Assembly (NCBI RefSeq): GCF_016107545.1
Contig: NZ_JABASS010000001.1
Coordinates: 248,001-312,000 of the forward strand
DNA: 64,000 bases
Direction of reading: 5' to 3'
From: Psychrobacter namhaensis
Lineage (GTDB): Bacteria; Pseudomonadota; Gammaproteobacteria; Pseudomonadales; Moraxellaceae
This document shows, piece after piece, positions 6,707 through 47,551 of this stretch. The notes below the pieces were generated by a model. The model had not been told where the DNA came from. It was given only the letters and a program-made list of their open reading frames with translations, and did no database searches. A program made the position numbers and the translations under genes. Numbering within the stretch: the stretch's first letter is position 1; each line of letters opens with the position of its first letter.

Positions 6707-8128
6707 CTATATCAAGAAAAAATAAGCCCACAACCCAACCACAAAGGTAGCGATAATATTGAGAATGACACCCGTACGGATCATCTCCGTCTGTTTAATC
6801 AGGCCAGTACCAAATACAATAGCATTGGGCGGCGTGGCAACTGGAAGCATAAAGGCACAAGAAGCCCCAATACCGATGACCAATACCAGTACTTCATGCG
6901 GCAGACCCATCTGCTCAGCGATAGCCGCAAATACAGGTACAAGTAGCGCGGCAGAGGCAGTATTAGAAGCAAACTCTGTCAAAAATATAATAAACGCCGA
7001 TACTGCAATCATAACCACAATCAGCGGTGCAGCAGACAGTGCATTGGCTACCGTCTCACCCAGTACCAACGACGCCCCTGATACTTTTAAAATCGTTGAC
7101 AGGGCAATACCACCACCGAACAACATGAGGACACCCCAATCGGTATTATCAGAGACTTGTTTCCATGATACCAAACCCAGACTGACCACAGCCGCCGCCG
7201 CTGATAAAGCAATAACAGCATCGGTATCAGTAATGTCCAGTGCTGCGCCAATTTTTTTGGAAAATATCCAGCTCAATGCCGTGACGATAAAGACGATAAT
7301 AGTCACCACACGCGGTTTGTTCCAAGCAATAGGCTCGTCTTCAACCAGTGTGATTTTACGATTTAGGTTCGGTTTAAGAAACACGTACATTGCACCCAAT
7401 AATAGCGGCAATAATACCAGCATCATTGGCACACCAAACTTCATCCAATCCACAAAGGCAATGTCGAGTGCTTTTGCCGCGATGGCGTTAGGCGGTGAAC
7501 CGACAATGGTACCCAATCCCCCAAGACTTGCTGAGTAAGCAATACCCAATAACACAAAAACAAAAGTACCACGATCTTTTTCACGATCAACTTGCGTCAA
7601 AATACCAAGCGCCAGCGGTAACATCATCGCCGCAGTCGCCGTATTCGATATCCACATCGATAAGAATGCCGTTACCCCAAATATCAAAAACACGGCTGTG
7701 CTTAGTTTGCCACCTGACATCGATAAAATCTTTAGCGCAATTTTTTTGTCCAACTGCTGCACATGCAAGGCCGCCGCCAACGCAAAACCACCAAAGAACA
7801 AATAAATGGTAGGATTAGCGAAACTTTGCAGACCAATTTCAGCATCGAACTCTGGTATACCAATTAAGGCCCCGACCACTACTACTAATAGTGCAGTAAT
7901 CGTCACGTGTACTGCTTCTGTGAGCCACAATACCCCAATAAAAAATAGCAGGGACAGACCCTTATTGGCATTGATGTCGAATGGTAATACATTATAAATA
8001 ACCATACTAACAAGCGCTGCAATAACGACAACGATCAACCCTTTGCCCGTACCCTTTGGAAAGGTATCTGTAAATAAATACTCATTGCCATCTTTAGGAA
8101 GATGGCTATCTAGTTTTTGCTCTGACAT
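6707..8128 (-). CDS. DASS/SLC13-family anion:sodium symporter
   Basis: A 473-residue polytopic membrane protein of the divalent anion:Na+ symporter family (the group of CitT, SdcS and VcINDY). It has the paired Ser-Asn-Thr motifs that bind sodium and substrate in this family: ISNTATAAMM near residue 160 and ASNTASAALL near 390, each in a helix-hairpin repeat. Members import di- or tricarboxylates such as succinate, malate or citrate; the specific substrate cannot be read here. The start has a soluble N-terminal tail of about 30 residues. It is a single-gene unit with its own terminator. Confidence 0.9.
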   Translation of the reverse strand: MSEQKLDSHLPKDGNEYLFTDTFPKGTGKGLIVVVIAALVSMVIYNVLPFDINANKGLSLLFFIGVLWLTEAVHVTITALLVVVVGALIGIPEFDAEIGLQSFANPTIYLFFGGFALAAALHVQQLDKKIALKILSMSGGKLSTAVFLIFGVTAFLSMWISNTATAAMMLPLALGILTQVDREKDRGTFVFVLLGIAYSASLGGLGTIVGSPPNAIAAKALDIAFVDWMKFGVPMMLVLLPLLLGAMYVFLKPNLNRKITLVEDEPIAWNKPRVVTIIVFIVTALSWIFSKKIGAALDITDTDAVIALSAAAAVVSLGLVSWKQVSDNTDWGVLMLFGGGIALSTILKVSGASLVLGETVANALSAAPLIVVMIAVSAFIIFLTEFASNTASAALLVPVFAAIAEQMGLPHEVLVLVIGIGASCAFMLPVATPPNAIVFGTGLIKQTEMIRTGVILNIIATFVVGLWAYFFLI

Positions 8129-32581: not shown

Positions 32582-33079
32582 CTAAACAAAACCTCGCAGC
32601 GTTGGATAATCATCAAGATTGTACGTTTCACCAGTTTTGGTGAGGTTCATTTGCTTAGCACGGCAAACAAATACAGCGCCCTCACGCTTTGGCTCATAGT
32701 CAGTGACCTCTAAGCCTAAAATGGTTAGCTGTGGCTTTGATAAGTCGCTAAGGTTATATTCACGGTAATTCAAGGTTGGCCTGATATGCGAGTATTGACT
32801 GGCTCTAGCAGCGTCCAGCTCTTTTGGAAATGTTTCGCCTAAATCACCAACACCGATAGTTATTTCCTGATCCAAATCATCGCTATTCGTGCCTTTTTGG
32901 ATTGTCAGCGGTACATACTCATAAGCGTAAGCAAAACCACCCTCGTGCGTCACTGTAACGCCGTCAGCATGGTTTTGTACGATACGATATACCTTTGACC
33001 ATGCAGGGTGTGAAATCTCCACACACTGCAATCTGACGTCATCAGGATTGCCGCTAAGCCAGTAATTATAATCAGGCAT
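32582..33079 (-). CDS. Phage tail protein of the DUF1833 family (gpL-like)
   Basis: 165 residues. The order after tape measure and M-like protein, the length, and blocks such as LQCVEISHPAWSKVYRIV, LTIQKGTNSDDLDQEITIGV and CRAKQMNLTKTGETYNLDDY match DUF1833, which fills the place of lambda gpL at the tail tip. It overlaps the upstream gene by 8 bases. Confidence 0.8.
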   Translation of the reverse strand: MPDYNYWLSGNPDDVRLQCVEISHPAWSKVYRIVQNHADGVTVTHEGGFAYAYEYVPLTIQKGTNSDDLDQEITIGVGDLGETFPKELDAARASQYSHIRPTLNYREYNLSDLSKPQLTILGLEVTDYEPKREGAVFVCRAKQMNLTKTGETYNLDDYPTLRGFV

Positions 33080-46034: not shown

Positions 46035-46063
46035 TAGACAGTGCCGCCAAATGGCACTATAAT
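46035..46063 (+). promoter_or_regulatory. Promoter-operator of the inserted cassette
   Basis: TAGACA (46035-46040), exactly 17 bases, then the consensus TATAAT (46058-46063). The 17-base spacer itself is an inverted repeat, GTGCC-N7-GGCAC (46041-46057). A repressor bound there would occlude the promoter completely. The likely start of transcription is near 46070. Confidence 0.85.
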
Positions 46064-46114: not shown

Positions 46115-46567
46115 ATGAACAAGTCAAACCTATTTAAACTAGCCCACACACTAACTAAAGCAACCATCAAAGCTGGTGACAACTATCAAGTAACATTTGG
46201 CGCAGCAGTAAAGCACATCAACTCTATCCACAACATCACTGGTACTGACAAGCAGTTAGCATGGGCTAACACGATCATTACTAACATCATTACTACTATC
46301 AAAGCTGCTAACGACAACATTGGCGCTCATTTTGCAAACAATCGCACTGATGTACGCGCTCTGCCAGCTCTTAACGCAACACTAAACAAGGGTATTGCTC
46401 ACTTTATCAACAAATATGCGAGCATGAGCTTTAACGAGCTAATCGCTTTAGCTGCAAACAAAACTTACAAAGATATGCGTCAAGAGCTAGATGCTAAGAT
46501 CGTTAAAGCTGTACTACAAAACGTTAAAAAAATGGAAGCAAAAAAAGGCGTTAAATTTATCAAGTAA
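46115..46567 (+). CDS. Cassette gene 1: hypothetical basic protein, anti-CRISPR candidate
   Basis: 150 residues, helical, Lys/Asn/Ala-rich. The opening LFKLAHTLTKATIKAGDNYQ and VTFGAAVKHI recall short hypothetical proteins of gammaproteobacterial phages and plasmids whose function I do not know. GAGGATACCAAG precedes the ATG. It is the first gene of a four-gene unit on the strand opposite to its late-gene and replication neighbours, driven by a strong, probably repressed promoter. Candidate anti-CRISPR or other early inhibitor from context only. Confidence 0.7.
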   Translation: MNKSNLFKLAHTLTKATIKAGDNYQVTFGAAVKHINSIHNITGTDKQLAWANTIITNIITTIKAANDNIGAHFANNRTDVRALPALNATLNKGIAHFINKYASMSFNELIALAANKTYKDMRQELDAKIVKAVLQNVKKMEAKKGVKFIK

Positions 46568-46592
46568 TCAACATAAAATTAAGGATAAGACT

Positions 46593-47018
46593 ATGTTAAA
46601 TATTAATGAGTTAAAAGCAAAAGCGGCAAGCAACGATGTGTCTATCGTAGATGTGGCAGATGGCTTGTATCAAATCTATAGCGGCGATTACGCTATCGGC
46701 GTACCTCAAGACTTAGAGCACCTGCAAAACGCTGATAAGTATGGTGTGTTTGAGGAGTTTGAGGAGGGCGCAGCCGAGGTGTTTACCCCTGATATTGAGT
46801 TTTTATGCACCAATGGCGCCAACAGCAGTTTTAAAGTGATGGCGGTTAATGCTGACGTGGCGTTAATGTTAGCAGCCAAGCGGTTTGATAGTGAGTCTGA
46901 TTATGTGCTACCGATTAACGTAGAGAGTGAGGGCGGATTAACTGGCGCAACGCTCAACGATCCTACCACTATATCGTACACAGATGAGGAGTTAGGGTTA
47001 AACGATGACTATATTTAA
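46593..47018 (+). CDS. Cassette gene 2: highly acidic protein, possible nucleic-acid mimic
   Basis: 141 residues from ATG 46593 with AAGGA 8 bases upstream. By my count it has about 27 Asp/Glu against 6 Lys/Arg, with clusters such as FEEFEEGAAE and TDEELGLNDD. It has no hydrophobic segment or recognised family. Strong negative charge is common in proteins that mimic DNA or RNA, including several anti-CRISPR and anti-restriction proteins. An in-frame upstream start at 46491 would overlap gene 1 by 77 bases and is rejected. It overlaps gene 3 by 14 bases. Confidence 0.75.
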   Translation: MLNINELKAKAASNDVSIVDVADGLYQIYSGDYAIGVPQDLEHLQNADKYGVFEEFEEGAAEVFTPDIEFLCTNGANSSFKVMAVNADVALMLAAKRFDSESDYVLPINVESEGGLTGATLNDPTTISYTDEELGLNDDYI

Positions 47019-47214
47019 AGATCACGGTTACAGCCCTGACAACTTTGCAGCGCTAGTCGCTGCATCGGGTTGTAAATCAAACTTACAGTTTATGACTGAC
47101 AATGATATGACCAAAACCACGTTTTACAGATACATGCGCGGCGACACGTCTATTGACTGGCAGACATGGCAGCTACTTGTTAAAAAATACGAGGTCAATA
47201 ATGGCAAGGCATAA
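47005..47214 (+). CDS. Cassette gene 3: HTH protein, candidate anti-CRISPR-associated (Aca) repressor
   Basis: 69 residues. The segment MTKTTFYRYMRGDTSIDWQT with WQLLVKKY reads as a helix-turn-helix followed by the W-x-W/L pattern seen in small phage regulators. AGGG lies 8 bases before its ATG. Its place inside a short operon whose promoter contains an inverted repeat matches the aca genes that autorepress acr operons. The family is inferred from pattern and context; it could be another type of autorepressor. Confidence 0.65.
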   Translation: MTIFKDHGYSPDNFAALVAASGCKSNLQFMTDNDMTKTTFYRYMRGDTSIDWQTWQLLVKKYEVNNGKA

Positions 47215-47470
47215 ATCTATCTCACAGCGATTAAAGTATCGGTTGGAGCCAAGCGTCAAGCAAGACATTGTTAATGACTGGTCAAAAGGTCAGCAAGACA
47301 AGTTTTTTGATGCGTACAAACAGCTTGAGGACGCAATAGGACGCAATGACGTACATGAGACACATATTGCACTAGATGCGCTAAAAGACATCGGTATCAA
47401 GTCGTTTGATGCGATCCCCAATATCGCAAAAGCTCTGATTGACACGCCACCCGATGGTAACTATGATTAA
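47201..47470 (+). CDS. Cassette gene 4: hypothetical protein
   Basis: 89 residues from ATG 47201 (MARHKSISQRLKYRLEPSVK…) with GAGG 8 bases upstream, overlapping gene 3 by 14 bases. The N-terminus is basic and the rest mixed helical (DWSKGQQDKFFDAYKQLEDA). No family recognised. It ends 4 bases before the CRISPR-repeat-like sequence, so both are on the same transcript. Confidence 0.65.
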   Translation: MARHKSISQRLKYRLEPSVKQDIVNDWSKGQQDKFFDAYKQLEDAIGRNDVHETHIALDALKDIGIKSFDAIPNIAKALIDTPPDGNYD

Positions 47471-47473
47471 CGA

Positions 47474-47551
47474 GTCGCACTTAGTGCGTGGATTGAAACC
47501 GAACTAGAGTTTTTTAAATTATAGAGAGCACGGTTAACGCCGTGCTTTTTT
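47474..47551 (+). ncRNA. Solitary type I-C-like CRISPR repeat with terminator, candidate RNA anti-CRISPR (Racr)
   Basis: Bases 47474-47499 read GTCGCAC, TTA, GTGCGTGGATTGAAAC. The stem CGCAC/GTGCG and the 3' handle GTGGATTGAAAC match type I-C CRISPR repeats as I know them, but the loop is about six bases shorter than the usual 32-nt repeat. There is only one repeat, so it is not an array. It is followed by a 27-base AT-rich stretch and then an intrinsic terminator. A transcript from the cassette promoter would end in a crRNA-like RNA that could capture Cas proteins. No cas gene is present in the window. Confidence 0.6.
47527..47551 (+). terminator. Intrinsic terminator ending the cassette
   Basis: AGCACGG (47527-47533), six-base loop, CCGTGCT (47540-47546), then six T's. 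Confidence 0.92.

Follow-up and report, generated by a model that had tools for sequence, protein, structure and literature searches.

A solitary, stem-shortened type I-C repeat in a Psychrobacter prophage: a candidate phage-encoded CreR-like guide RNA matching the host cas3 upstream region

How does a prophage persist in a host whose CRISPR array carries spacers against it? This question arises in the 2.9-Mb genome of Psychrobacter namhaensis, in which the 64,000-nt stretch of DNA analysed here (the window, part of contig C11) holds a prophage that extends from near 22.9 kb to past 60 kb, with PHROGs matches to integrase, tail, tape measure, major head, portal, terminase, DnaB-like helicase and repressor among ten scanned proteins. 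The host cas locus, on contig C7, is intact (Cas3, Cas5c, Cas8c, Cas7c, Cas4, Cas1 and Cas2 are open frames matching type I-C models), and the host array (G000:C7:24326-36049, L010) contains 180 I-C repeats, a handle variant counted, and 179 spacers. Four repeats near the far end of the array share a T-to-C change in the handle.

Seventeen of the 179 host spacers matched the prophage at four mismatches or fewer, all within window positions 23869-60771 (84 kb around the window were scanned); four spacers matched exactly, three of them with a TTC PAM. The PAMs of the 17 protospacers were TTC (9), CTC (2), TCC (2) and others (4). In three shuffled controls, matches at up to nine mismatches numbered 1, 0 and 1, none better than nine, and the reversed sequence gave two, both at nine. 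Since intact cas genes are found together with self-targeting spacers, something must block immunity, and we infer that the blocker is a small unit of the prophage itself, located on C11 and not on the contig of the cas locus. Two spacers, 45 and 136, share a 32-bp prophage target (window 32867-32898) on opposite strands, the former matching it exactly and the latter with two mismatches.

The unit closes a plus-strand operon of four small genes, which lies between the terminase-side genes and a Q-like antiterminator and comprises the following features.

46035 to 46063, plus strand: operon promoter, TAGACA-17-TATAAT, 11 of 12 consensus bases
46115 to 46567, plus strand: gp1, 150 aa, weak family matches only
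46593 to 47018, plus strand: gp2, open reading frame of 141 aa from the ATG at 46593
47005 to 47214, plus strand: gp3, 69 aa, predicted helix-turn-helix protein (AlphaFold2 pLDDT 80)
47201 to 47470, plus strand: gp4, 89 aa, helical model (pLDDT 65)
47439 to 47467, plus strand: sigma-70-type promoter TTGACA-17-TATGAT, 11 of 12 consensus bases, predicted to be dedicated to the small RNA
47474 to 47499, plus strand: solitary stem-shortened I-C repeat (mini-repeat), GTCGCACTTAGTGCGTGGATTGAAAC
47489 to 47499, plus strand: expected 11-nt crRNA 5' handle TGGATTGAAAC after Cas5c cleavage, following I-C processing as given in a section of PMC5965380
47500 to 47526, plus strand: guide
47527 to 47551, plus strand: predicted terminator hairpin and U-tract, in place of the crRNA 3' repeat hairpin

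The spacer of the operon promoter contains an inverted repeat, GTGCC...GGCAC, which may be an operator. The gp2 query (46587-47015, which includes two extra upstream codons) returned no significant family match. Foldseek matches of the gp3 model were mostly helix-turn-helix proteins, Aca7 included, none at E ≤ 0.001, and gp3 is possibly an Aca-like autorepressor.

We compared the mini-repeat with the host repeat GTCGCACCCATCACGGGTGCGTGGATTGAAAC and found 23 of its 26 bases identical to the first 7 plus the last 16 bases of the latter, so that the prophage unit is a host repeat without upper stem and loop. The mini-repeat folds into a 5-bp CGCAC/GUGCG stem with a 3-nt loop. The handle GTGGATTGAAAC occurs 177 times in the genome, 176 times in the one C7 array and once in the window, where the repeat is present as a single copy. 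A chance origin was rejected, as the pattern GTCGCACN{1,8}GTGCGTGGATTGAAAC is expected 1.4e-8 times per window on both strands. These results bear out the initial annotation, made from the sequence of the window, which had proposed a solitary type I-C repeat at 47474-47499 in a phage operon and had asked for a comparison with I-C repeats; the likeness to the host I-C repeat is clear and goes beyond chance. Its placement of the repeat at the end of a plus-strand operon, with a terminator after it, likewise holds; the gap of four bases that it gave after the last gene does not, because gp4 ends at 47470 and leaves 3 nt.

The last codons of gp4 contain the small-RNA promoter, whose score was equalled at 7 of 2000 random window positions. 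Because this promoter ends at 47467, the expected +1 falls at about 47474, where the repeat begins, and the small RNA is expected to be transcribed from it. Downstream of the guide, an inverted repeat (47527-47533/47540-47546) is followed by a T-run, and 47500-47551 folds at -16.3 kcal/mol (z -4.60); the terminator call rests on this inverted repeat and fold, the consensus terminator scan listing no terminator after the guide. A functionless stray repeat, acquired through recombination with the host array, would have had 180 repeats as its source, but it is precisely the upper stem and loop that are missing, a promoter and a terminator are present, and the unit is kept in a second prophage despite diverged flanks (see below); we give this explanation hardly any credence.

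The guide CGAACTAGAGTTTTTTAAAT matches the target CGAACAAGAGTTTTTTAAAT at 19 of 20 positions, with the mismatch at position 6. The target (G000:C7:15123-15142, minus strand; 7124-7143 of the cas locus extract L009) lies 14-33 nt upstream of the cas3 ATG (L009 7157), beside a CTC PAM, which is a minority PAM among the 17 self-targeting protospacers (TTC 9, CTC 2). The similarity starts at the handle/guide junction and amounts to 23 of 27 positions overall; the last base of the handle also matches, the rest of the handle does not. In type I Cascade, every sixth guide base is flipped out and unpaired, and a mismatch is tolerated there. We placed the cas3 -10 at L009 7108-7113 by eye, guided by its conservation in relatives; the cas3 promoter of the host has a weak match to the consensus and does not appear in the consensus promoter scan listing.

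Significance was evaluated with Markov null sequences (n = 100,000) of the 400 bp upstream of cas3. None of the 100,000 reached 17/17 at the non-flipped positions. The length of 20 and the masked positions were picked after the match had been seen, and the test was therefore repeated unmasked at 20 nt and at 27 nt; again 0/100,000 reached 19/20 and 0/100,000 reached 23/27. A chance match was thus rejected under all three scorings. An origin of the guide as a host-array spacer was also rejected, as the array contains no copy of the guide core. Several of the 13 genus cas3 upstream regions compared (G077, the weakest of 14 cas3 matches, was left out) have a partly matching site at the same place, with the guide's best fit in its own host (17/17, versus 15/17 for G076, 14/17 for G079 and 13/17 for G008).

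Virus-borne mini-arrays acting in conflicts between viruses are known (a portion of PMC11656645 describes them), and the unit could in principle be such a mini-CRISPR, its guide aimed at a competing phage and its cas match accidental or secondary. Against this, CGAACNAGAGTTTTTTAAAT has no exact match in the viral contigs, and neither the target nor handle plus guide is present there (this set may lack records close to the genome of the window); furthermore, among the matches listed for 105 genus genomes, the cas3 upstream site is the only place, besides the unit itself, that the guide matches with at most one mismatch. We consider a role in inter-virus conflict very improbable.

We then asked which known class of RNA the unit resembles. 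CreRs (Liu et al. 2023) are crRNA-like RNAs with partial complementarity to the cognate cas promoter, through which the host effector represses cas (PMC12737573, PMC13131331, in their CreR passages); one of these two reviews names subtypes I-B, I-E and V-A there and the other type I and V-A generally, with I-C in neither passage. The prophage unit shares with CreRs a crRNA-like build, a degenerate repeat (short stem, intact handle) and a guide to the cas3 upstream region, and, next to a PAM, it is partly complementary to the cognate cas promoter as assigned by eye. CreRs, as portrayed in those passages, are a system's own autoregulation, whereas this unit is prophage-borne, of type I-C and on another contig than cas, and is not host-encoded beside the cas locus. 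Within the first 16.25 kb of L009, which cover the cas genes and the region upstream of cas3, no 16-mer came within four mismatches of half-stem plus handle; three weak 12-mer matches, with four mismatches each, lie upstream of cas3 in L009.

The Racr/SRU elements, in the parts of PMC10651486 that describe them, are similar in having one repeat in a viral genome, a predicted promoter, a host-matched subtype and a position 3' of small phage genes; here, too, a solitary repeat sits in a mobile element without a nearby array, and the host has a complete matching I-C locus and array. RacrIF1, according to the same parts, works via an aberrant Cas6f-Cas7f complex, whereas the prophage unit has no upper stem and its guide matches the cas3 upstream region. 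The unit aligned with each of four I-C repeats over 16 nt at 32.2 bits, which, for these four repeats only, is below the SRUFinder cut-offs quoted there (at least 90% identity and coverage, 41.1 bits). Two further RNAs, as outlined in a section of PMC9458426, are related in logic: CreA of CreTA is likewise an ectopic degenerate repeat with a partial guide and acts by Cascade-based transcriptional repression, but represses a toxin, the target of the prophage unit being the cas3 upstream region; the scaRNA of Francisella novicida combines a degenerate repeat, a 15-bp complementary sequence and repression, but is Cas9-based and bacterial and targets a lipoprotein operon. Considering that one CreR feature (host-encoded beside cas) is lacking and the Racr similarity cut-off is not reached, we class the unit as a CreR-like RNA encoded by a phage; it is predicted to work as CreRs do and bears a resemblance to Racrs. 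No phage-encoded CreR was found among the best-ranked matches in the open-access literature; an earlier description is possible.

The initial annotation had gone further and read the repeat as an I-C Racr. Much of that reading stands, namely the repeat mimic, the prophage, the intact self-targeting I-C host and an Aca2 gene near the relative's unit; the match of the guide is what it does not capture. As a plain Racr, the RNA would be a decoy that only sequesters Cas5c, Cas7 and Cas8c, the guide match being irrelevant. RacrIC1 of a Bifidobacterium prophage does inhibit type I-C (a passage of PMC10651486), and the related unit in Psychrobacter pygoscelis keeps the repeat and not the guide. A decoy, however, needs no guide, and a cas3 upstream match that begins at the guide start and is reached by 0/100,000 null sequences under three scorings is unexpected of one; moreover, guides also occur on truncated repeats in bacterial cas loci. 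The guide-like match makes a CreR-like mechanism, in which Cascade silences cas, better supported than a plain Racr, with sequestration as a likely second effect; that the RNA is a decoy and nothing else seems to us rather unlikely.

We therefore propose, with a probability of about three in four, that the phage encodes, in this element, a CreR-like guide RNA which directs host Cascade to the promoter of its own cas genes. From the dedicated promoter, a transcript of about 78 nt (47474-47551) would arise, in which host Cas5c would recognise the short hairpin and handle and cut; the 5-bp stem is expected to be accepted by this enzyme. The product would measure 63 nt (11-nt handle, 27-nt guide and 3' hairpin), the canonical I-C crRNA measuring about 65 nt in the processing section of PMC5965380. 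Loaded Cascade would bind next to the CTC PAM, in the interval that separates the cas3 promoter from the cas3 start codon. Since the guide pairs less well past position 20, an incomplete R-loop is expected, and the cas operon would be silenced without Cas3 cutting the chromosome. The same RNA probably also acts as a decoy that occupies Cascade, such that silencing and sequestration together would let the self-targeted prophage survive.

If this mechanism is true, it represents a form of counter-defence in which the virus makes the immune effector a repressor of the immune genes, joining Racr decoys and CreR autorepression, two ideas that the literature passages cited here treat apart. The unit would then exploit the very autorepression by which hosts can otherwise answer anti-CRISPRs with higher cas expression, and the truncation of the stem would hide such units from current SRU searches. 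We think it rather probable that phages carry RNA-guided transcriptional anti-CRISPRs of this type, i.e., stem-truncated crRNA mimics whose guide turns host Cascade on the cas operon. The mechanism predicts a guide-dependent fall in cas3 promoter activity, and solitary-repeat guides are worth comparing with host cas promoters.

A homologue of gp4 (74% identical) was found in one other of 105 genus genomes, that of Psychrobacter pygoscelis, whose prophage also encodes a gp3 counterpart (57% identical); the IMG/VR viral contig L057 is the same locus. There, both hexamers of the small-RNA promoter are identical and are followed by TCGCACTAGTGCGTGGATTGAAA and then by a terminator-like hairpin (by eye), and the flanks of the unit have diverged between the two prophages. 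P. pygoscelis has its own six-repeat I-C array. The guide of its unit showed no convincing match to the cas locus of P. pygoscelis, where the cas3 upstream region reached 12/17 (983 of 5000 null sequences did as well), or to 13 genus cas3 upstream regions (best 13/17, G036). With the relative's guide lacking a cas match, the conservation supports the repeat unit and not the guide. A related-locus search of viral contigs and tblastn of phage records recovered no gp4 relatives; L057, fetched by DNA pattern, encodes one, which means that this viral gp4 search was not exhaustive. The P. pygoscelis operon promoter (TTGACT-17-TATAAT) has a different inverted repeat at the same place (by eye); both operon promoters (window 46035-46063; L057:154) thus contain an inverted repeat between -35 and -10, each with its own sequence, which would fit an acr-aca operon under autoregulation.

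About 0.7 kb downstream of the P. pygoscelis unit, and separated from it by one gene, is an Aca2-family gene (PF08965, E 2.1e-15). It bears on a further explanation: that the prophage is protected by an anti-CRISPR protein, encoded in this operon or a different one, and the RNA contributes little. Gp1, gp2 and gp4 are small proteins without assigned function, and Acr and Racr genes often occur together, as stated in a passage of PMC10651486. Set against this, no known Acr family was detected with NCBIfam among the ten small window proteins scanned (the prophage has more), and the guide match would be left unexplained. We regard such a protein as possible though doubtful as the main protector, and it is compatible with a CreR-like RNA. 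The stretch 3' of the relative's unit (L057:1717-2704), encoding a 139-aa protein and the Aca2-family gene, is a place to seek new protein anti-CRISPRs.

Truncated I-C repeats were also sought in 84,980 genomes, which yielded 27 stretches. Ten of these (L030, L031, L034, L035, L039, L040, L044, L046, L049 and L050) belong to arrays or lie at array edges and were kept out of the solitary set. Five solitary truncated repeats lie beside cas genes (L032, L033, L036, L041 and L054; cas genes were sought for part of the rest), and four of the five have a partial guide match to their own cas region: L032 (TTC PAM; 4 of 20,000 null sequences as good), L036 (TTC; 27/20,000), L041 (TTC; 8/20,000) and L054 (TTT; 17/20,000). 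Guide position 6 is mismatched in L036, L041 and L054, and position 12 also in L054. The fifth, L033, showed no second site (1000/20,000 as good). Judged by sequence, these four loci, from Clostridiales (L032:715-981), Ramlibacter (L036:5221-5573), Geomicrobium (L041:1128-1529) and Spirochaetia (L054:7390-7562), look like bacterial I-C CreRs of the same build as the phage unit; truncated-stem patterns can find candidate I-C CreRs. The Geomicrobium cas3 beside L041 reads with stops. Arrays were found in three of the bacterial genomes with truncated repeats, and their repeats are longer than the solitary units.

An apparent second site at L055 (Treponema) was dropped as a small duplication of a gene start. 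No second site was detected within the scanned region for L029, L052, L042, L047 and L048, and the guides of L029 and L052 did not match the cas3 region of their own genomes. At eight other truncated-repeat loci, no sigma-70-type promoter was found in the corresponding place (between 265 and 1539 of 2000 random positions scored as well). A solitary degenerate I-C repeat in G008 (L094:8116) lies in the cas operon, between ORFs taken by position as cas7 and cas4, and had no clear target.

In viral contigs, the truncated-repeat pattern gave 9 matches versus 0 in the reversed control. L016, L018, L020, L023, L056, L058 and L059 carry solitary truncated repeats without a local second site. Two of them, L016 (10698) and L020 (187), are related; in both, TTCG closes the stem of the solitary I-C repeat and a short palindrome comes next. 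L020 is partly similar to Bacteroides phages. At position 3061 of L023, GTCGCACTTATGTGCGTGGATTGAAAC is followed by a hairpin and T-run (by eye), and the loop is nearly as in the window.
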